Virus record (IMG/VR): IMGVR_UViG_3300010938_000808
Location: 1-50,503 of that record
Source of the DNA: a virus
Direction: 5' to 3' (one strand)
DNA length: 50,503 nt
Shown: positions 7,119 through 17,050 of the stretch, one piece after another
Position numbering within the stretch: position 1 is the stretch's first letter
Layout of the letters: every line of letters begins with the position of its first letter
Made by a program: the position numbers and the translations under genes
Notes under the pieces: generated by a model
Databases searched by the model: none
The model's input: only the letters and a program-made list of their open reading frames with translations
What the model was told of the DNA's origin: nothing

Positions 7119-8030
7119 TTACAATCCTTTCACACATTGATAACAAGCCAAGACCAGCCGGGATTTGTCGCCATAGAAGGTCTCTGAAAACACTTCCATA
7201 ATTGCGGCCACTCTATCATCTTCAGAGTTTAGTAGCACAGTGGAACAGTAATTCATGATATGTTTCCGTATGTTTTCTGTATCCTTTCCTTCCATTTTTC
7301 TGAGAATAGATGAAACGTGCTTCCAAGATGCACGCTTGATTATGGCTTGGCATAGCTCTAAACTTGTGGACTCTTCCAGTAGAAATGATGTAGAAACATC
7401 GGATCTTTCGGATTCAGGAAGATCCAGAATTCTTTCTAAAATTTGAAGCGCTGTCCTGGGAAGCCCTTGACTCTCAGCGATAATTCGCTCGTATAACGAT
7501 TTGCTAAGTGACTGGCCTTCGGCTCGGACTACTCTTCTAAGTAATAGCATCATTTCTTGGGATGATAACTGAGGAAGCGAGAATGTAGCACATCGGCTTT
7601 TAACTGTAGGCAAAAGCCGGTCTGGTTCAGTGGTGCAAATGAAAAAGAAGACATGATCGGGAGGTTCTTCCAGAAGTTTGAGAAAGGCGTTTTGTGCCTC
7701 ATTGGTGAGCTTGTGAGCCTCGTCTATGATCCAGGCTCTACGTTTAGATCCCATTAAAGATGGCAGCCCAGATAATTGGATTATCTCCCTCACGGTATCA
7801 ATACCACGAAAATCCGAAGCATTTATTTCAATTTTCCCGTCCCCTTCACAGCCCAGATTCTTAGCACATATACGAGCCAGGGTAGTTTTCCCTGTCCCTG
7901 TAGGGCCGTGAAACAGAAAGGAATGTGGAGGATCCGTTTTAGAGATAGCAGCTTTAATGGAAGCTATCAATTCTGGCCGTCCAATCAACTGATCAAAATC
8001 AGCCGGGCGATATTTTATGTGAAGAGCCAT
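7119..8030 (-). CDS. Sliding-clamp loader ATPase (DnaX/RFC-like)
   Basis: The protein has 303 residues, AAA+ type. It begins IKYRPADFDQLIGRPE, a hallmark of clamp loaders, then has Walker A GPTGTGKT (42-49), Walker B IIDEAHKL, sensor 1 CTTEPDRLLPTVKSRC with the SRC arginine finger motif, and a helical C-terminal collar region. It would open the sliding clamp encoded at 10680-11771 for the adjacent DNA polymerase. The length matches a single-subunit phage loader without a tau extension. AGAGGATAGT precedes the ATG. Confidence 0.92.
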   Translation of the reverse strand: MALHIKYRPADFDQLIGRPELIASIKAAISKTDPPHSFLFHGPTGTGKTTLARICAKNLGCEGDGKIEINASDFRGIDTVREIIQLSGLPSLMGSKRRAWIIDEAHKLTNEAQNAFLKLLEEPPDHVFFFICTTEPDRLLPTVKSRCATFSLPQLSSQEMMLLLRRVVRAEGQSLSKSLYERIIAESQGLPRTALQILERILDLPESERSDVSTSFLLEESTSLELCQAIIKRASWKHVSSILRKMEGKDTENIRKHIMNYCSTVLLNSEDDRVAAIMEVFSETFYGDKSRLVLACYQCVKGL

Positions 8031-8064
8031 ACTATCCTCTCTTCTTCTATAAAATTATAAAAAT

Positions 8065-10683
8065 TTAGGTAATTTTATTTAGATTCCAGTGCTTTTTCAT
8101 TGATAAAGGCTCTCCAACATCGCATATTTCGAACTCAACCTCTAGAGGGACATTTATCCAATTCCATTGTCGTTGTAATTTTTTCTCGGCTAATCTTTTC
8201 AGAACTTTTGCGCACCATTGAAGTTCTTCTGAAGGACATTCTACTGTTACTTCATCATGCACCTGGCTTACTAAGCGACTTTGTTTTTTATTTTGTTTCA
8301 AAAGTTGATCAAATTCTATCAAAACCCATAACAAACAATGAAAAGCGGTGCCTTGTATCGGATAGTTAGAAACCTGCTTTCGGTCCATTAATCCGCTACA
8401 TCGAAAACCAGTCAGCATTTCTATATAACCATTTTTTATGTAGTTTCGCCACATTCTTTCTTTCCATGCGGAATATGTTTTGTAACGCTCGTTCCAGAAG
8501 GAGTCTTCCACTTTCTTCACGTGTTGCTCGAAGCGATTAAATGACAATAAGTTCCCCCTTCGGCCCAATCGAACTAGCTTTTTTTGTTCCAGATGCTCTA
8601 GCGCAGGCGTACCGTCTTTCAATCGAGAGTCTGCGGCCCATTTAATGAGATTCTTAGTGCAATTTACGTAATAATCTCCATAAAACTGAGGGAATACGAA
8701 GGAGTTCTTAGCAGCTTGTCTAAGGCGAGATTCATTAGGATCGTGCTTATCTAGAGAATCGAGAAGAAATAGCTCAATTGCCATATCACGATGCATATCA
8801 CCATTGAGAGTGTCTTTGATTAGTTTTTCGTCCTGCGTGTAAACACAAGCAATACGAACCTCTATCCCAGAAAAGTCCATAGACAAAAACTGTTTCCCGG
8901 GGCGAGGGTATAATACACTTCGACACATTTTCATTGTCTCGAGATCCCGTTTGGGGAGATTTTGGAAATTGGGATGATCTGAGCTAGATCGATATGTTCT
9001 GGTGGTGTGAAGCTGAAAAAATGGATGTAAAATTCCATCGCATTGTTCTCTCAAAAATTGGTCTAAGTAAGTGTCTCGGATTTTTTTGAGCTTGCGAATT
9101 TCTAAGATTTTGTCTAATTCTGGAAGTTTCAGTTCCTTTAATGCTTCATCATCAGTGGAACCTTTCCCTGAGGCAGTTAATTTTAAAGGCGGGGTCTTCT
9201 TGAACTCGTATAAAAATTTAGATAGCTGATCATTAGAATTGATATTAAACTTAGAAGGACCAACAAAAGTCTTCCACTGCTGTCCAAATTCGGATTGGAC
9301 TAGCTCAGCCGTTAGATGATCAATGGTGCGGGATAATTTGTTTTTTAGCTTATTACATTTTTCCGTTGCTATTACGATTCCATTTTGTTCCATATTTTCC
9401 AAAGCTATTGTACCATTATGAAATAGGCGATAGGCTTTACTGAGAGAAGGTGATTGAGATATTTGAGAAATTTGGATTTGAGCTAGACGATAAGTTAGAA
9501 GTGCGTCCATACCACAGTACTTTAACAGGTCTCGGGTTTTTTCATGATTTCTTATCAGAAGCTCTATCTTGTTTTTGGAATTAGCCCCTTTGTTGGAGCT
9601 TTCTACAGAACTTAAAAAGGGAGCCACAGATTCATCATAATTTGGAAGGCCGAATTGAACATAAGTCTGAAACTTGAGACTAGTTATCCCGGCTCGGTTA
9701 TCTAAAATATGAGCAGCAATCATTGTATCCCACTTCCAGCCTTTTACTTCACATTTCAATCGTGCGCGGCTCCACATCTCCTCAAACTTCATATTATGAG
9801 CAATTTTTTCAATTTTATCATTAGCCAGAAGTCCTTTGAGCAGTTGGAGTTGCTCCGAGTCAGATTGATCTACCAGAGATGCTATGGCTTGATTTTCGCT
9901 CAGAGCGATTCCAATAGCCACTATCTTATGCCCATCCGCCCAAGGTTTTAGCCCAGTAGTCTCATAGTCAATGGCTATGGTAGAGCCTTCTGGAATGTCT
10001 CGAATCCATGAAAGGTCTTCAGCGATTTCAATATACTTATCTAAATCATCTAAAGTTGGAAAGTTTTTCTGGGTTAACTTGATCGCGTTTCGAAGATCCC
10101 TTTTCCATTTTCTGGATATTTCTGGGGCTTCTCCTGTTCTGAGAATAAAACTGGGATGGTATGTTGGGCATATGAAAGATCTTAAGATTTGGTCTGGTAT
10201 ATTCCATCCAGCCCATTTCTCCATGCTTCCAATATCCTTTTTCCAGTTCATTCCGATTACAGATTCAACAGCGCAAGATCCTAATAAAATTATTACTTTC
10301 GGGTTATATGTTTTGATTGCGCTCAAAACTTTGTATCTGCAAAAGGAGATTTCCTTGGATGTTGGGGCACGATTAGATCCGCTTTTAGTCGTTGGTCGGC
10401 AGTTAACTGCATTTATACTTATGCAATCTTCAAACAGTTCCACTCCCAAGCTTCTCATAGTTTTCTGAAGTAGTAAACCGGCTTTTCCTTGCCATGGTTT
10501 TCCTCTTTGGTCTTCCACCTCACCGGGAGCTTCCCCCACTACCATGATATTTTTCTTTCCTTTGCCAAAGGGCTCTATACAAGGAGATTTGGCATTAAGA
10601 TACAGTTGACAATCAGAACATCTCCCTGGCAGACTTTCTGGTTGAGATGTTCCAGCCTTTATCAAAAGTCCTTGTTTAATCAT
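8065..10683 (-). CDS. DNA polymerase I (family A) with N-terminal uracil-DNA-glycosylase domain
   Basis: The protein has 872 residues and three parts. Residues 1-~205 form a family-4-type uracil-DNA glycosylase: CxxC (C22, C25), GEAPGEVED, NAVNCRP, a later Cys in EISFCRY and YHPSFILR, so all four iron-sulfur cysteines appear present. Residues ~230-400 form a 3'-5' exonuclease with DYETTG, AHNMKFEE and YCGMDALLTYRL, so proofreading is likely. Residues ~410-872 are the polymerase: motif A MDFSGIEVRI, motif B RQAAKNSFVFPQFYG (one residue longer than in bacterial PolI) and motif C QVHDEVTVE. ATG overlaps the clamp gene's TGA as ATGA. The fusion would couple uracil detection to synthesis. Confidence 0.93.
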   Translation of the reverse strand: MIKQGLLIKAGTSQPESLPGRCSDCQLYLNAKSPCIEPFGKGKKNIMVVGEAPGEVEDQRGKPWQGKAGLLLQKTMRSLGVELFEDCISINAVNCRPTTKSGSNRAPTSKEISFCRYKVLSAIKTYNPKVIILLGSCAVESVIGMNWKKDIGSMEKWAGWNIPDQILRSFICPTYHPSFILRTGEAPEISRKWKRDLRNAIKLTQKNFPTLDDLDKYIEIAEDLSWIRDIPEGSTIAIDYETTGLKPWADGHKIVAIGIALSENQAIASLVDQSDSEQLQLLKGLLANDKIEKIAHNMKFEEMWSRARLKCEVKGWKWDTMIAAHILDNRAGITSLKFQTYVQFGLPNYDESVAPFLSSVESSNKGANSKNKIELLIRNHEKTRDLLKYCGMDALLTYRLAQIQISQISQSPSLSKAYRLFHNGTIALENMEQNGIVIATEKCNKLKNKLSRTIDHLTAELVQSEFGQQWKTFVGPSKFNINSNDQLSKFLYEFKKTPPLKLTASGKGSTDDEALKELKLPELDKILEIRKLKKIRDTYLDQFLREQCDGILHPFFQLHTTRTYRSSSDHPNFQNLPKRDLETMKMCRSVLYPRPGKQFLSMDFSGIEVRIACVYTQDEKLIKDTLNGDMHRDMAIELFLLDSLDKHDPNESRLRQAAKNSFVFPQFYGDYYVNCTKNLIKWAADSRLKDGTPALEHLEQKKLVRLGRRGNLLSFNRFEQHVKKVEDSFWNERYKTYSAWKERMWRNYIKNGYIEMLTGFRCSGLMDRKQVSNYPIQGTAFHCLLWVLIEFDQLLKQNKKQSRLVSQVHDEVTVECPSEELQWCAKVLKRLAEKKLQRQWNWINVPLEVEFEICDVGEPLSMKKHWNLNKIT

Positions 10684-11771
10684 TGCTTTTTTACAGCAAG
10701 AGCTAAAGCGTAGATCTCTTTATATTTGTCTAGTTCTGTCATAATTACAATTGCAATAAAGTTTTTAGAGCTTTCGACAAAACCAATTAACGATTCCTGA
10801 TTAATTCCTGCAAGTAAAAGTTCCGAATCAAAGTCAATGCTAAAATCAGGTAGCTCTTTTAAGCAACCAGCAGAAAATGATTCCTTAAAACTCGCAATCT
10901 GAGTGCTTCTTGCTATGACACACGTATTTTCACTTTTTTGTAATTGAGTAAAGGGCTGCTCGTCTTTACTGCAAAAAGCGCTAGCTCTCTTTAATGTAGG
11001 AATTAAGTCGGGAACTTCTGAGACTTTATACAAATGCACAGAAGCAAAAGACTTCCAAATATCTGTTAGCTTGTCGAATTCTTGAGCTCCAGCATCGGCA
11101 GTTACTATCAATAGCTTAATCTCTATATTGTTTGGAGTTAGGAAACTAATTAATTCGGAGTCATAAAGCATTATCTTATTGATATTATACTTTGTTAATG
11201 CTTGAGCGGATTTAGCTCTTAAGAATAGATTATCTATCTCAAGGCCAAAATCAACTTTCCATGCACGAAACCCATCAGTTACTTGTATTGCGGTTTGCGT
11301 AAAGTTCAATAAGTCAAAAGGAGTGCATAATGCTTTTGCCGCAATTTCAATTCCTTTTGGAAGCAATTTTGCGAAAATATTTTCATGAATGTCAAAAGTT
11401 CTCAAAAGATTACCATTGCTTTGCCACATAACAGGAACTTCAGCTTTACTCACAGTAAGCGAGCAATTTATCCCACTATGCTCAATTATTATCTTTGAAT
11501 CTTCTATCGTTAGTATTGACGTTTTTGAATTGTCAGGTAATAAGTCAATGATCGAATACCACTCATTGAATGGTATTTGTATACATTTATCATAGCATAA
11601 GATTTCCGAAGGAATTTTCGCAGCAATATCAAATCCTTGTGCTATAATTCCTTCATTATAGAGTAGTAACTGAAATGGAACTATTTTAACGTCTGAACAT
11701 GCTGCGTAAATTGGTTTAGTAATAGCAGTTAATCGTTTAAGTTCAGAACATTCAATTTCAATCTGTTTCAT
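10680..11771 (-). CDS. Probable DNA sliding clamp (beta/PCNA-like)
   Basis: The protein has 363 residues from the ATG at 11771 (MKQIEIECSEL), which has AAGGGAG 7 bases upstream. A longer frame to 11849 would run through a strong inverted repeat and has a poor SD. The sequence shows alternating beta strands and the length of a three-domain clamp, with an N-terminal ECSELKRLTAITKPIYAA helix-strand pattern and a C-terminal FIAIVIMTE strand. It overlaps the polymerase gene by 4 bases, and the clamp loader follows the polymerase. Context is the main support, because clamp sequences diverge strongly. Confidence 0.6.
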   Translation of the reverse strand: MKQIEIECSELKRLTAITKPIYAACSDVKIVPFQLLLYNEGIIAQGFDIAAKIPSEILCYDKCIQIPFNEWYSIIDLLPDNSKTSILTIEDSKIIIEHSGINCSLTVSKAEVPVMWQSNGNLLRTFDIHENIFAKLLPKGIEIAAKALCTPFDLLNFTQTAIQVTDGFRAWKVDFGLEIDNLFLRAKSAQALTKYNINKIMLYDSELISFLTPNNIEIKLLIVTADAGAQEFDKLTDIWKSFASVHLYKVSEVPDLIPTLKRASAFCSKDEQPFTQLQKSENTCVIARSTQIASFKESFSAGCLKELPDFSIDFDSELLLAGINQESLIGFVESSKNFIAIVIMTELDKYKEIYALALAVKKQ

Positions 11772-11802
11772 TGCACTTTCTCCCTTCATAGTTTTTATAG
11801 AA

Positions 11803-11850
11803 AATGAATTCTGAGTAAGTCTAGTAATTAAAGCTTGCTCAGAATTCATT
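11803..11850 (-). repeat. Long inverted repeat before the clamp gene
   Basis: The 17-base arms at 11803-11819 and 11834-11850 pair with a single G-T wobble around a 14-base loop; the outer 13 bases (AATGAATTCTGAG and complement) are perfect. It lies between the stop of the KEKV protein (11860) and the clamp start (11771). On the minus strand it is followed by TTTTCTATAAAAAC, so it could be a leaky terminator, an mRNA-processing or stability hairpin, or an operator. Confidence 0.7.
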
Positions 11851-11859
11851 CTCTTGATC

Positions 11860-12375
11860 TCATATTATGTTTTTCTTACGAAGAGCACGCATAAATCTCC
11901 AACTAATATAAACTCCAGTATCGGTTGTTGTTTTTGCAACATTTACACCCAAAGATTCAAGTTTCTCAGTAATTGCAGTTTTTAGTTCCTTGTGTTCGCA
12001 ATCAAACCCAAGTTCAGAAAACGCATCAGCAATGATCTCAAAAACATCAATTTTGGATTTTTGCCTTAGTCCTTTCTCTTTTACTTTCTCCTTTACTTTC
12101 TCCTTTACTTTCTCCTTTACTTTTTCTTTAGTGGGTTTCTCTTTCGAAGGCGTTTCTTGCTTCTCCTCTTCTAATTTGTCTAACTTGAGTATAGATTTCA
12201 ATAATGTTGTTGACTTAGCAGAAAAATGATCATTTTTCCAGTCAACAAGCTCTCCTGCTTCTTTAATCATCTCAATAAGCAAATCAAGATCTTCTTCGTC
12301 AGGGTTCAAAGCTGGATCAAGACCTAATACTTCATTCATTTCTTCTGCAAGCTTCCTGATTCCCTTTACGTCCAT
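11860..12375 (-). CDS. Hypothetical protein with KEKV tandem repeats
   Basis: The protein has 171 residues. The N-terminal ~70 residues are acidic and helical. A Lys/Glu-rich linker follows with KEKVKEKVKEKVKEKVKEK (about residues 83-101), coded by 12-base tandem repeats. The C-terminal ~65 residues look like a small folded domain (IDVFEIIADAFSELGFDCEH...VYISWRFMRALRKKNII), possibly winged-helix-like. AGGAGGG precedes the ATG. It is first after a candidate promoter and upstream of clamp and polymerase. Family not recognised. Confidence 0.7.
   Translation of the reverse strand: MDVKGIRKLAEEMNEVLGLDPALNPDEEDLDLLIEMIKEAGELVDWKNDHFSAKSTTLLKSILKLDKLEEEKQETPSKEKPTKEKVKEKVKEKVKEKVKEKGLRQKSKIDVFEIIADAFSELGFDCEHKELKTAITEKLESLGVNVAKTTTDTGVYISWRFMRALRKKNII
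12080..12127. repeat. 12-base tandem repeat, about four copies
   Basis: Plus strand unit TTTACTTTCTCC occurs at 12080, 12092 and 12104, with a decayed fourth copy at 12116. It encodes the KEKV repeats of the gene above and is prone to copy-number change. Confidence 0.85.
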
Positions 12376-12418
12376 GATTTATCCCTCCTGATACAGATAT
12401 TGGTGATCAACTATAGAT

Positions 12419-12446
12419 ATTATAGTGACATCTTCGTTTTTATTAA
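12419..12446 (-). promoter_or_regulatory. Candidate minus-strand promoter for the KEKV-clamp-polymerase genes
   Basis: In the 74-base gap after dpdA, the minus strand carries TTAATA (12441-12446), a 16-base spacer and a perfect TATAAT (12419-12424), about 45 bases before the ATG at 12375. The -35 matches four of six consensus bases. No terminator is visible between dpdA and this site. Confidence 0.45.
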
Positions 12447-12449
12447 GAT

Positions 12450-13514
12450 CTACGTAAAGCGCTTACTTTCAGTATCTCCATGGTTTTGAGACTCTGCTTT
12501 TAAGCTCCGTGCAAGTCTTAATTTTTCTAGTGTTGAGCGAACAAATGTTTTATTTTCATAGCTAACCAGTATATTGAATTGGAATCCAATTTTGTTCAAA
12601 AAAGAGTTAAAGTCATTAACTCTATCTTCGAACCGCTTGAGAGAGTAAAATGTATATCTGTGATAAAACCATGGTCGTTTGCCATACTTATTTTCAATAT
12701 AATTTACAATATCAGAAAACGCTGCATTAAATTCTAACACAGATAGTAAATACATAAAAGCATGATAATTTAATATTTCGTTATGTAAACTATCATCAAA
12801 AAGTTCTTTGAAAAAAAATGAATAGCTTCTTGCTCTTTGCACTATAAGATCCCTTTGGCAAGGTAAATAACGCGACAGTAATCCACGATCGATTAGCTCG
12901 ATAAAAGGCTGATGTTTTTTTTCCACTGTTTCTGCTATTATCGTGGGGCGCTTATATGTATGGGGTATAAACAATAGTTTTTTATGATCAGGATTATAGA
13001 TTACAAATCTAGCGTATTTTCTTGCAAACAATGCTACTGTAGAGTCAGCACTATCAAATTCAAAACGCTTGAAAAAATCAAGGTCATTAAGCCCAAATCC
13101 ATGAAAGCTAATACTTTCAAGAATATCAGCTGGAAAATACCTTCGAATTGTTATCAACCATGGAACTGTCAAGTCTTTGCCAAAAGCAGCTATTCCGCCA
13201 ATAGCAATTCTTTTGTAATTATTTATATACTTTGAAATAATTTCTAAGGGCTCGGGATAATGAATTGTAGGAACAGGATTAAGGCCATTACTCTCCATTA
13301 TCTTCTGATTCTCATAAGTTTTTATCGGATTTCCTATTACATCTAATACAGCATATTCAGTGATAATATCCTTGTTTTCATGTAAGAACTTAATATAACT
13401 GTCTATGTTTATATTAATTCCTTTTGTGAATGCACTAAATGCCCCTGAATCCACAAAAACTTTATCAATCCATGGTTCTAAATAGAATGTTTCATTTGTA
13501 ACATTACCTTGCAT
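12450..13514 (-). CDS. dpdA: DpdA-like DNA guanine transglycosylase
   Basis: The protein has 354 residues and resembles the TGT family in its DNA-acting DpdA branch. VDSGAFSAFTKG (Asp22) matches the TGT DSGGF motif, IAIGGIAAFGKD the GGLAVGE-like loop, and SFHGFGLNDL...FDSADSTVALFARK the nucleophile region. It would exchange guanine in DNA for a 7-deazaguanine made by the three upstream genes. DpdA proteins lack the tRNA-binding zinc site of TGT, and none is seen here. The N-terminus is short: the DSGAF motif starts at residue 22, earlier than I expect for phage DpdA. The SD GGAGGTAG is good, and the gene overlaps the FolE fusion by 11 bases. Confidence 0.82.
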   Translation of the reverse strand: MQGNVTNETFYLEPWIDKVFVDSGAFSAFTKGININIDSYIKFLHENKDIITEYAVLDVIGNPIKTYENQKIMESNGLNPVPTIHYPEPLEIISKYINNYKRIAIGGIAAFGKDLTVPWLITIRRYFPADILESISFHGFGLNDLDFFKRFEFDSADSTVALFARKYARFVIYNPDHKKLLFIPHTYKRPTIIAETVEKKHQPFIELIDRGLLSRYLPCQRDLIVQRARSYSFFFKELFDDSLHNEILNYHAFMYLLSVLEFNAAFSDIVNYIENKYGKRPWFYHRYTFYSLKRFEDRVNDFNSFLNKIGFQFNILVSYENKTFVRSTLEKLRLARSLKAESQNHGDTESKRFT

Positions 13515-14400
13515 TTCTACCTCCGAATATAAGCGACATCAATTCTGCTCTTGCTGCTATCCCTTTTTGAGTAGGCTCTAAGAATACCCCGGTCAAACTT
13601 GATGTGATCATTATACTGCTTTGCTTTTCAACCCCTCTCGCCCTCATGCATAAATGATTTGCTTCTATTATACATGCAGCTCCAATACATTGTAATTTTT
13701 CTTGTAGAAAATCGACAACATTTTTTCCAATTCTCTCTTGGATTTGAAGCCTTTTCGCAAAAGTATCTATAATCCTTGCAAGTTTACTTATACCAATTAC
13801 TTTCCCGTTACTACCTGGAATATAAGCAACATGCGCCTTTCCGAAGAAAGGAAGAATATGATGCTCACAAAGAGAATAGAATTCTATATTCTTTAGAAGA
13901 ATCATCTCATTATAACCTTCCATATTGAAAGTTTTTACAATCTCATCAAGATTTTGATGATATCCCAAGCACATTTCTTTTAGCGCTGCAATAACTCTTT
14001 TTGGAGTCTCTTTAAGGCCATCCCGGTTAGGATCATCTCCTAAGTATTCGATGATTCGTGCAATATTCTCTTCAATTCCTTCATGCTGTAGAGAAGGATG
14101 TTGACGCTCCCAAGGAAATGAAACCCATACTCCAATCAACCCCTCAGATTGTTTATCAACCAAAGTAACAAAAGGTTTTGAAGGATATTTTTGTTGATAG
14201 TAATTTTTTGTCCTTCCTGAGTCAAGAATATCATCTAAAATAATATCAGCATCATCTGGAGAGATACATGGAATAGCGTTTCTAAGTAGAATGCATGCTA
14301 TCATGCCACCATTAGGTACTCCATATATTTTCTTTTCTGAAATATCAAACTTTGCTATTCTCTGCCTTATATCATCCCAGCTAAGTATATACTTATCCAT
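13504..14400 (-). CDS. folE: Phosphoribosyltransferase-GTP cyclohydrolase I fusion
   Basis: The protein has 298 residues. Residues 1-~98 look like a type-I phosphoribosyltransferase: YGVPNGGMIACILLRN, the PRPP loop IILDDILDSG (53-62) and WVSFPWERQ. Residues ~105-298 are a complete GTP cyclohydrolase I with zinc ligands C178, H181 and C251 (SLCEHH, HLCMRARGV). FolE makes dihydroneopterin triphosphate, the first precursor of 7-deazaguanines. The PRTase could salvage the guanine released when DpdA swaps bases, returning it towards GTP; this is inference from the fusion. It lies between queE and dpdA, with overlap into dpdA. Confidence 0.88.
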   Translation of the reverse strand: MDKYILSWDDIRQRIAKFDISEKKIYGVPNGGMIACILLRNAIPCISPDDADIILDDILDSGRTKNYYQQKYPSKPFVTLVDKQSEGLIGVWVSFPWERQHPSLQHEGIEENIARIIEYLGDDPNRDGLKETPKRVIAALKEMCLGYHQNLDEIVKTFNMEGYNEMILLKNIEFYSLCEHHILPFFGKAHVAYIPGSNGKVIGISKLARIIDTFAKRLQIQERIGKNVVDFLQEKLQCIGAACIIEANHLCMRARGVEKQSSIMITSSLTGVFLEPTQKGIAARAELMSLIFGGRNAR

Positions 14401-14411
14401 ACTTATCTCCT

Positions 14412-15071
14412 CTAAGGCAAATTTACAATTTTATGGATTTGGATTGACAATGTAATTCTATTCGGATCAATACTGCTAGAGAATATTACAAACTGTATAA
14501 TCTCGTTAGCAAGTTTCGGATCTGCGTTCAATGGGCTCAATAAGACCCTTCCTTTGTATCCCAAACTGTCTATCTTCAATAAATCCTTTGAAAACCACTT
14601 AAGATCTTTTGCATCATGAATTACATACTTGACAATAATGTTAGGAGATTCCCAGCGTTGATTGTCGTTCATATATTTACTCATTCCGCTAGAAGGACAC
14701 TTTCTATCAATAATCCAGTATGCTTTTTTAATAAAATCTCCAGGGATTCCTATTGATCCATTTGTCTCGACTTGGACAAGAAAACCCCTGCTATATAAGT
14801 CATCAATTAGTCTGACAATATCTTCATATGAGTTTGCAAGAGGTTCTCCTCCTGTTAGCAAGATTTGTTTGATTCTATAGCTTTCAATCTTTTTGAGTAA
14901 TTCATCGAGATCATATAATACTCCACCATACATGTCTTGTGCTCTCTTTGTATCACACCATATGCACTTCAAATTGCATCCCTGGAATCTCACAAAAAGA
15001 GTTATACTGCCTTGATGAAAGTATCCACCTTCTCCTGATATAGATACAAAGATTTCATTAACATTAAGCAT
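14412..15071 (-). CDS. queE: QueE-like 7-carboxy-7-deazaguanine synthase (radical SAM)
   Basis: The protein has 219 residues from the ATG at 15071 (MLNVNEIFVSISGEGG), one base after the queD stop, with GGAGATG upstream; a longer frame reaches into queD but is unlikely. Motifs are ISGEGGYFHQG, RFQGCNLKCIWCDT (radical-SAM CxxxCxxC cluster) and LLTGGEPL (SAM-binding GGE). It converts 6-carboxytetrahydropterin to 7-carboxy-7-deazaguanine (CDG). It is the third enzyme of the pathway, and no queC follows it. Confidence 0.92.
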   Translation of the reverse strand: MLNVNEIFVSISGEGGYFHQGSITLFVRFQGCNLKCIWCDTKRAQDMYGGVLYDLDELLKKIESYRIKQILLTGGEPLANSYEDIVRLIDDLYSRGFLVQVETNGSIGIPGDFIKKAYWIIDRKCPSSGMSKYMNDNQRWESPNIIVKYVIHDAKDLKWFSKDLLKIDSLGYKGRVLLSPLNADPKLANEIIQFVIFSSSIDPNRITLSIQIHKIVNLP

Positions 15072-15072
15072 C

Positions 15073-15465
15073 TCACATCTCCACTTCAGCCCAGCAATTA
15101 GGAGTCTCGTAAAGAATGACTTTATCAAGCTTGATTTCCTTGTCATTTATTGACTTTTCGATCCAATCAACAATTATTGAAGCAATCCATTCAGCAATTC
15201 GTTCTGCTGTTGGGCAATCAAAGGGGAATCCGATATTGTGCAAATCATTCAAAAGAGAATGATCTAAAATACTTGTAATTCTTTGATTTACTACTGCTTT
15301 AATATCTCCAAAATCAATCAACATTCCTTTATTATTAAGCTTGTCCCCTGATAAGCAAATAATCAATGTATACGTGTGGCCATGAAGGTTTCTGCATTTC
15401 CCTTTATGAGTAGGAAGAAAATGCGCTGCATCAAACGTTGTTTTATAGCAAACCTTTGTCTTCAT
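15073..15465 (-). CDS. queD: QueD-like 6-carboxytetrahydropterin synthase
   Basis: The protein has 130 residues, the usual length. Zinc ligands are His in DAAHFLP and both in NLHGHTY, the catalytic Cys precedes them in KGKCRNLHGH, and DHSLLND, PTAERIAEWI and the late ETPNCWAEV Glu complete the site. It turns dihydroneopterin triphosphate into 6-carboxytetrahydropterin. It is the first gene of the modification operon. GGGGGGAAGTGAG precedes the ATG. Confidence 0.93.
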   Translation of the reverse strand: MKTKVCYKTTFDAAHFLPTHKGKCRNLHGHTYTLIICLSGDKLNNKGMLIDFGDIKAVVNQRITSILDHSLLNDLHNIGFPFDCPTAERIAEWIASIIVDWIEKSINDKEIKLDKVILYETPNCWAEVEM

Positions 15466-15480
15466 CTCACTTCCCCCCTA

Positions 15481-15497
15481 TTGCATATTATATGCAA
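15481..15497. promoter_or_regulatory. Palindrome with TATAAT upstream of queD (possible operator/promoter)
   Basis: TTGCATA and TATGCAA flank a 3-base centre, a perfect 7+7 palindrome about 16 bases before the queD start. Its minus strand contains TATAAT. No good -35 is visible at 16-18 bases. A repressor site over a weak promoter is plausible. Confidence 0.35.
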
Positions 15498-15514
15498 AAA
15501 GCTAAAATCCATTG

Positions 15515-17050
15515 TTATCTCCTATAGGAATGAAGAACTGGTCTTCCAATTTGTAATCTTCCCAAAACAGTCACAGGTCTCAGCGGATCAAAGTCTGCCT
15601 CTCTTACCACAATCTCATTTATTCTTATCATACCAATCCGTTTTTCCTCAGGAGTCTGATTCAACCCATACATCGCTGTGACGTGGGCAAATTTGCGCTT
15701 ATCTTCGCTGAATTCGCTCATCGTCAGAATTGATTTTTTATAGCCATCGGCTTTTATCTGAGTGGCAGTTAACACTAGGCAATTAAACTCTTGTGACAAA
15801 GATCGTAACCTTTGCCAGATACGATTCTGCTGATGCCGATACTCTAAGCGGGCAAAATCCGCATCAGGGGCTAATATATCTGCATAATCAATTATAATTA
15901 GATCCGGATTGAATCCTTCACTACGCTTCAGGAAGGTTATTTTATTCTTAATTTCTCTGATAGTTAATGTTTCATTGGGATATGTTAAGATTTTGAGAGA
16001 TCCCTTAGTTTTTCTACCAAAGCGAATAAGATATTTATAAGCTTCCTTTTCCTGGAGAGGGGTTTCCGCTTCTCTCCAAAACAGCCAAGGAAACCCTTTC
16101 ATTTTTTCACAATTATGGCAGATCTTATGATTTGGGTTTAGTTTAGCTGCATTGATCAATGAATCATAATTCAATGCACTTTCCTCTTCATCTACGGTAA
16201 AAATTGGACTTCCAGAATTCTCCCTAGCAGAATTATCGCACTCATCTACTAAGTTCCACCAGCAGTCCAAGTCAGCAATCCACATACCATTACAGTATCG
16301 CGGATCATCCGACTTCTTAGCTAACCAGATAACAATCCTGCGCAATTGTTGCTCCTCTGTCATATCCCCAGCTTGGAAAAATAGGACTTTAGAACCAAAC
16401 CTCACTGCTCTCATAGCCAATTCTATCAATAGGAATGTTTTCCCAATTTTTTCCCTTCCCATTATTGCCACGAATGCTCCGCGGCACATTTCACGATCCC
16501 AGAACTCTCCTAATGCTTTGGGGGTTTTGATCACAGAAGACTGTTTCTGAGAAAATGCAGAAGCAATCTTTTTTCTAACACTAGTGGAAAAAGGATCTAG
16601 GGGTTCACCAAATTCCTCATTATAATCAACCCCTAATTCAAGCAGAGAATTTTCAGCTTTATCAATTTCATTACGTTCTAAATATTCAGAAGCCTTAGAA
16701 ATCTGATATGCAATTTTTCGCTTTTTGAGATAATTTAGAGCTTGGTCAATAAGGTATTCAGAGCTTTCTGGGTCTGGGGCTTCATATGACTCCAAAACAC
16801 TTCCAACCCACTCTGCAATATCATTATCAAGATGGGGTAAATTAGAGTAGAAAATTTGCTTTATGTTTTCTCTGGGGGCTCTAGAGTATTCTTTCCAAAA
16901 GCTAAGGCACCACTTAGCTATCACACGGGAGGCTCTGGATTCCAAAATTTTTGGATCCAGAAAGTTGATAATCTTTTTTAGAAAACTATCCGAGGTTATT
17001 GCAGCTTGAATTATCCTACGCTCAATGAAATCACCCGATTCATTCTCCAT
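15515..17050 (-). CDS. DnaB-like replicative helicase
   Basis: The protein has 511 residues. The N-terminal ~140 residues are helical, as in DnaB, and begin with ERRIIQAAITSDSFLKKI. The RecA-like motor has Walker A GREKIGKT (around 198-205), FFQAGDMTEEQ (Walker-1a region) and Walker B LIIIDYADIL, with LTATQIKADG after it. Between Walker A and B lies a long insertion with CHNCEKMKGFPW that may bind zinc; this is not typical of DnaB. It unwinds DNA at the fork and is loaded by the DnaC-like gene just upstream. AAGGGAAA precedes the ATG. Confidence 0.88.
   Translation of the reverse strand: MENESGDFIERRIIQAAITSDSFLKKIINFLDPKILESRASRVIAKWCLSFWKEYSRAPRENIKQIFYSNLPHLDNDIAEWVGSVLESYEAPDPESSEYLIDQALNYLKKRKIAYQISKASEYLERNEIDKAENSLLELGVDYNEEFGEPLDPFSTSVRKKIASAFSQKQSSVIKTPKALGEFWDREMCRGAFVAIMGREKIGKTFLLIELAMRAVRFGSKVLFFQAGDMTEEQQLRRIVIWLAKKSDDPRYCNGMWIADLDCWWNLVDECDNSARENSGSPIFTVDEEESALNYDSLINAAKLNPNHKICHNCEKMKGFPWLFWREAETPLQEKEAYKYLIRFGRKTKGSLKILTYPNETLTIREIKNKITFLKRSEGFNPDLIIIDYADILAPDADFARLEYRHQQNRIWQRLRSLSQEFNCLVLTATQIKADGYKKSILTMSEFSEDKRKFAHVTAMYGLNQTPEEKRIGMIRINEIVVREADFDPLRPVTVLGRLQIGRPVLHSYRR

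Follow-up and report, generated by a model that had tools for sequence, protein, structure and literature searches.

A compact phosphoribosyltransferase domain fused to phage GTP cyclohydrolase I and its possible role in recycling guanine freed by DpdA

The window, which is the whole stretch of 50,503 nucleotides of viral DNA analysed here, carries the genes for FolE, QueD, QueE and DpdA together in one minus-strand cluster, within 8065-17050. The genes queD (15073..15465; PF01242, E 4.8e-37) and queE (14412..15146, with a true start probably near 15074) are followed by a prt-folE fusion gene (13504..14400), which encodes a protein of 298 residues from an ATG start, and by dpdA (12450..13514), which encodes a guanine transglycosylase (PHROG 887, E 4.7e-39). 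The ATG of dpdA falls within the last codons of folE, with 11 nt of overlap, and the GGAGG of dpdA also sits in the folE gene, an arrangement consistent with coupled expression. A family A DNA polymerase gene (8065..10683, minus strand) lies downstream of these modification genes. No queC was seen in the 50.5 kb record, which may be a fragment, and it was likewise unseen in 32 of 74 loci of at least 12 kb that carry the fusion; phages without queC may insert CDG or rely on the QueC of the host. A PADLOC search of the fusion and DpdA gave no defence match.

In the 298-residue product, residues 1-100 (14101..14400) form a compact phosphoribosyltransferase (PRTase) domain and residues 105-293 (13522..14088) a complete GTP cyclohydrolase I. 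The latter is matched by PF01227 at residues 109-277 (E 7.9e-65), scores above the cut-off of the NCBIfam folE equivalog, and aligns with the Mycobacterium tuberculosis FolE structure at Z 23.7 and 43% identity. Its zinc ligands C178, H181 and C251 show no variation in 88 aligned relatives, confirming the full FolE with all zinc ligands that the initial annotation had described.

The N-terminal domain is less readily recognized. Pfam, PF00156 included, gives no match to residues 1-100 of the window protein, and PF00156 matches 13 of 40 aligned relatives of the domain. The best family match is PHROG 8995, annotated as 'phosphoribosyl transferase' (E 1.1e-8), and a profile of the 40 relatives matches the XGPRTs of Yersinia (8e-12) and E. 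coli (1.2e-10) over the whole domain length. AlphaFold2, run on the whole protein with an alignment of 88 sequences, returned a mean pLDDT of 95.1 and a pTM of 0.86, and residues 1-100 alone gave a pLDDT of 96.1. The solved structures nearest to the predicted domain are all XGPRTs from E. coli and Yersinia, some of them with cPRPP and guanine, superposing with an rmsd of 2.3-2.4 Å over 98-100 residues. They include 4jls, with a guanine analogue bound (Z 11.9), 1a95, the E. coli enzyme with Mg:cPRPP and guanine (Z 11.4-11.5, rmsd 2.3 Å, 100 residues aligned), and 1a97, with GMP bound (Z 11.0). Archaeal and Helicobacter pylori 6-oxopurine PRTases come next in the ranking, and PyrR is also among the matches (Z about 8). 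The domain is modelled with a PRTase fold, and a chance resemblance to PRTases is ruled out by the profile and structure matches.

The elements of a 6-oxopurine PRTase active site can be followed along the domain. Loop I, YGVPNGG (residues 26-32; 14305..14325), carries Asn30 at a position that is Arg in 72 of 88 relatives. The PRPP loop, IILDDILDSGRT (residues 53-64; 14209..14244), supplies D56, D57 and D60, which align with XGPRT D88, D89 and D92. Lys83 (14152..14154), a Lys in 78 of 88 relatives, aligns with K115, and the base-lid motif WVSFPWE (residues 92-98; 14107..14127) places W92 and E98 opposite W134 and D140. In XGPRT, D88 and D89 bind PRPP, D92 faces N7, K115 contacts the purine O6 and the other residues frame the base. 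By alignment, then, the domain has a PRPP loop with two acidic residues, an N7-facing Asp and then G.T, as well as the base-binding Lys and a W...PW(D/E) lid. The initial annotation had read residues 1-98 as a PRTase from the motifs IILDDILDSG and SFPWE; the XGPRT profile, PHROG 8995 and the AlphaFold2 model all agree with it, the two motifs correspond to the PRPP loop and the base lid, and a PRPP site is present in the predicted structure.

One further feature, which the initial annotation had missed, accounts for the small size of the domain. In the XGPRT alignment, 22 residues are missing between loop I and the PRPP loop, at the location of flexible loop II; known 6-oxopurine PRTases use this loop to close over PRPP. 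It is missing from every family member, and the spacing from loop I to the DD pair is mostly 20-34 residues in the fusions, whereas canonical cellular PRTases, with few exceptions, have 43-59. Its absence is thus a family feature and no defect peculiar to the window, and is the main reason why the domain is named XGPRT-like rather than XGPRT.

Conservation across the fusions indicates that the site has been maintained. P29, G32, D56, D57, G62 and T64 are invariant in 88 fusions, and D60 (87), W92 (87), W97 (87), Glu or Asp at position 98 (88) and K83 (78) are nearly or fully so, although part of these loci had been fetched by a pattern fixing D56-D60. In a second scan that did without this pattern, D60, the N7-facing Asp, was present in 65 of 66 fusions. 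The dN/dS of the N-terminal domain was about 0.02-0.25 in the 25 closest pairs; medians over 257 pairs were 0.32 for this domain and 0.16 for FolE, with distant pairs near synonymous saturation. Sequence comparison therefore places the domain under purifying selection.

Relatives in public collections show that the fusion is no peculiarity of this contig. Among GenBank/RefSeq phages it occurs in 33 records, duplicates among them (31 found with the N-terminal domain alone, plus two MMDA13 records), with carriers that include NP1, PaMx25, JG012, Quinobequin P09, VpKK5, and Vibrio breoganii, Stenotrophomonas and Variovorax phages. Where these genes are annotated at all, the label is 'GTP cyclohydrolase' only. 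In IMG/VR, 144 of 153 fetched loci carry the fusion: 78 of the 80 that the N-domain profile retrieved and 66 of the 73 that the whole-protein profile added, a few contigs being in both sets. The pairing with dpdA, which the initial annotation had proposed to look for in other phages, recurs throughout: dpdA is on the contig in all 74 fusion loci of at least 12 kb, within the fetched flank in 73 and elsewhere on the contig in the other (L116), and in the 125 loci with both genes the gap is always below 4 kb. Among the matches listed for the lid pattern in cellular genome contigs, just two (L168 and L202) are fusions; they come from one MAG and both carry dpdA and que genes, L168 having a phage-type DNA polymerase as well. 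Within those matches, the phage-like, dpdA-bearing nature of both contigs speaks against a cellular housekeeping protein, a reading that was rejected. In a tree of the PRTase domain, 41 of 45 sampled fusions, the window and three viral standalone forms share one clade with weak support (0.71); this tree, which also includes E. coli Gpt, serves as a hint only. In Pseudomonas phage Baskent_P4_1 (L001), an unannotated gap directly follows folE (7832-8750); the DpdA model matches an ORF there (7507-8748), and dpdA is absent from the annotation of that phage.

Compact PRTases also occur outside the fusion, and these standalone forms likewise match PHROG 8995 best. One contig (L005) has the PRTase as its own gene together with an unfused FolE and DpdA, and in another (L043) the PRTase gene directly precedes an unfused folE, which is followed by a TGT-family gene. 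In L124 the PRTase lies beside FolE, and DpdA was not found on the 170 kb record. A lone compact PRTase is encoded at 7902-8348 of L078, a 57.5 kb phage fragment on which neither FolE nor DpdA was found. The PRTases of L043, L124 and L078 can be read as ending in a short tail similar to the initial helix of FolE, which would fit an origin by the splitting of a fusion. On a Clostridia MAG contig (L207), QueD, PRTase, QueE and FolE are encoded by separate neighbouring genes. No PRTase was found in the whole genome of phage 9g or in six DpdA-bearing IMG/VR records. Second short PRTase-like genes stand near que clusters at L043:11287-11760, where the PRPP loop is degenerate, and at L037:226-498. 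A compact PRTase without loop II is also found in Prochlorococcus (L177:6148-7043) and in about 30 similar picocyanobacterial loci. The L177 form has Glu at the N7-Asp position (DDVYETG) and overlaps a gene for a nucleoside 2-deoxyribosyltransferase (PF05014, E 1.6e-29), so that another base-exchanging enzyme adjoins a compact PRTase, as with DpdA.

Taken with the neighbouring dpdA, the two domains suggest a metabolic link. In Hutinet 2019 (PMC6884629), DpdA is presumed to exchange bases in the manner of TGT, which means that each inserted base would free one guanine. The FolE domain, judged by its family, would make the first pathway intermediate from GTP; each 7-deazaguanine would thus cost one GTP and each exchange would free one guanine, a 1:1 stoichiometry. 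The XGPRT-type domain would most likely join this guanine to PRPP, yielding GMP, and guanylate and nucleoside-diphosphate kinases, neither of them found here and presumably those of the host, would return GMP to GTP for FolE. Removal of guanine would also stop it from competing with 7-deazaguanine for DpdA, and the benefit may be GTP supply, removal of the competing base, or both. We give roughly even chances to a two-domain enzyme of the 7-deazaguanine pathway whose PRTase would recycle DpdA-freed guanine to GMP; catalysis, guanine as the substrate and the recycling role are inferred. The broader proposal, that a widespread bifunctional enzyme closes a guanine loop, saves GTP and pulls base exchange forward, is more tentative and stands slightly below even.

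Guanine recycling, as the initial annotation had proposed it, is partly supported. Neither of the outcomes that were to count against it, a missing PRPP site or a fusion widespread away from dpdA, was seen. The conserved XGPRT-like site, purifying selection on the domain, the N7-facing Asp and the dpdA linkage all favour it, several of the structures nearest to the model hold bound guanine, GMP or a guanine analogue, and L005 and L043 pair a separate compact PRTase and an unfused FolE with a DpdA- or TGT-type gene on the contig. Against it stand the missing loop II, the window's Asn at the position of the loop I Arg, the lone PRTase of L078 and the fact that hosts such as E. coli possess guanine PRTases of their own. 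The closed loop on a single chain that had been envisaged holds in so far as FolE is on the same chain as the PRTase; the loop itself is not closed there, because GMP must first pass two kinase steps. Nor is recycling required for modification, because DpdA phages without the domain exist, namely 9g and the six IMG/VR records.

In a regulatory interpretation, a PRTase fold without the catalytic loop would adjust FolE activity through the binding of PRPP, guanine or GMP, much as PyrR and PurR, both regulators with a PRTase fold, act in transcription control. Loss of the loop in all members, the attachment of the domain to the enzyme that starts the pathway and the structural match to PyrR would all suit such a role. 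Retention of the N7-Asp and base lid almost without exception, however, goes beyond what a PRPP sensor would need, and the standalone compact PRTases of L005, L043, L078 and L124, one of them with no FolE found on its contig, have no obvious place in it, making regulation of FolE unlikely overall.

The same site could also serve general purine salvage, in which breakdown of host nucleic acid would supply guanine, xanthine or hypoxanthine for conversion to nucleotides, so as to provide FolE with GTP, and the link to DpdA would reflect GTP demand only. An XGPRT-type site would take these bases, and fusion to a GTP-consuming enzyme fits, but every fusion locus that is long enough has dpdA. This linkage separates salvage from the recycling of DpdA-freed guanine only weakly, because que genes travel with dpdA; on balance, general salvage is judged rather improbable.

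The choice of base can be approached through a comparison set of five PRTases that are encoded with FolE, QueD, QueE or QueC and have no DpdA seen nearby, from a Rhizobium leguminosarum plasmid, Micromonospora zamorensis, Streptomyces liliifuscus, Microlunatus speluncae and Saccharomonospora (L236). All five have Gly at the D60 position (DDIAGDG, DDICGTG, DDIAGSG, DDVAGTG and DDICGSG), a feature drawn from few sequences, with those of TubE and ToyH not among them. Because a 7-deazapurine bears a carbon in place of N7, loss of the N7 partner is chemically plausible, and the Asp kept in the phage domain argues for a true purine, with guanine favoured over preQ0 or CDG as the substrate. One member of the set, Rhizobium leguminosarum plasmid pCC283b_4 (L326), carries at 7186-15534 a toyocamycin/sangivamycin-like 7-deazapurine gene set of queD, PRTase, queC, nitrile hydratase alpha, IMP dehydrogenase, queE, purB, purA and folE beside nodABCI.

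A PRTase acting on a 7-deazaguanine (CDG or preQ0), whose nucleotide product could then be incorporated into DNA in dNTP form, has a precedent in TubE of tubercidin biosynthesis, a PRTase proven to be specific for CDG and encoded alongside homologues of FolE, QueD and QueE (PMC6112128), and the lack of a visible queC in the window and in 32 of the 74 fusion loci would agree with it. The Gly of the five cluster PRTases, where the phage domain has Asp, tells against such a substrate, as does the insertion of a free base by phage DpdA, which makes a nucleotide unnecessary, so that this activity is considered very unlikely. Least credible of all is a domain that has lost its activity and survives only for its structural role in FolE, for although loop II is lost and DpdA phages with unfused FolE occur, active-site residues are kept in very divergent members and the domain is under purifying selection.

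If DpdA-freed guanine is indeed recycled, a dedicated PRTase, carried by the enzyme that opens the pathway, would keep DNA base exchange in metabolic balance, in place of the known account in which the removed guanine is simply released. It would also account for how phages afford thousands of GTP per genome, the window alone holding 20,725 G:C pairs; in phages CAjan and Rosebush about 30% of guanines are replaced, as derived from a table in PMC6884629. A 6-oxopurine PRTase site would, moreover, be functioning without the flexible loop thought necessary for catalysis. The existence of isolates NP1, VpKK5 and Quinobequin P09 opens the idea to direct test.

The fusion seems to be undescribed: no account of it was found in open papers searched on PRTase with DpdA, FolE or GTP cyclohydrolase in phages, a scope outside which the 2023 DpdA3 paper (Cui et al.) falls. 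The main text of Hutinet 2019 (PMC6884629), which includes the fusion-bearing Quinobequin P09, likewise yielded no mention of a PRTase domain. The 'phosphoribosyltransferase' of papers on coral, snow and Stenotrophomonas phages denotes nicotinamide/nicotinate enzymes. PHROG 8995 matches the N-terminal domain but is annotated as a separate family, with no stated role or FolE link.

Comparison with characterized systems shows how the protein combines familiar parts. With the XGPRT (Gpt) of E. coli and Yersinia, the phage domain shares the fold (Z 11-12), the PRPP loop DD..D.G.T, loop I, the Lys115 equivalent and the W...PWD/E lid, but it has about 100 residues instead of 152, lacks flexible loop II, is fused to FolE and reaches only 20-30% identity in structural alignments. 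GTP cyclohydrolase I is shared as a full domain with its Zn ligands, to which the phage protein adds the N-terminal PRTase. TubE and ToyH are likewise PRTases encoded with FolE, QueD and QueE, but they have about 190 residues and belong to antibiotic pathways without DpdA that handle 7-deazapurine bases (PMC6112128); the Gly at the N7-Asp position seen in the five cluster PRTases, taken as typical of the TubE/ToyH type, is absent from the phage domain. The phage 7-deazaguanine pathway FolE-QueD-QueE-QueC-DpdA, as set out in Hutinet 2019 (PMC6884629), where the unfused FolE of phage 9g is functional in E. coli, shares its QueD, QueE, FolE and DpdA cluster with the window, which differs in the fused FolE and in having no QueC seen. 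The locus is thus best described as a form of this established pathway that is distinguished by an extra PRTase domain, overlooked until now, on FolE.
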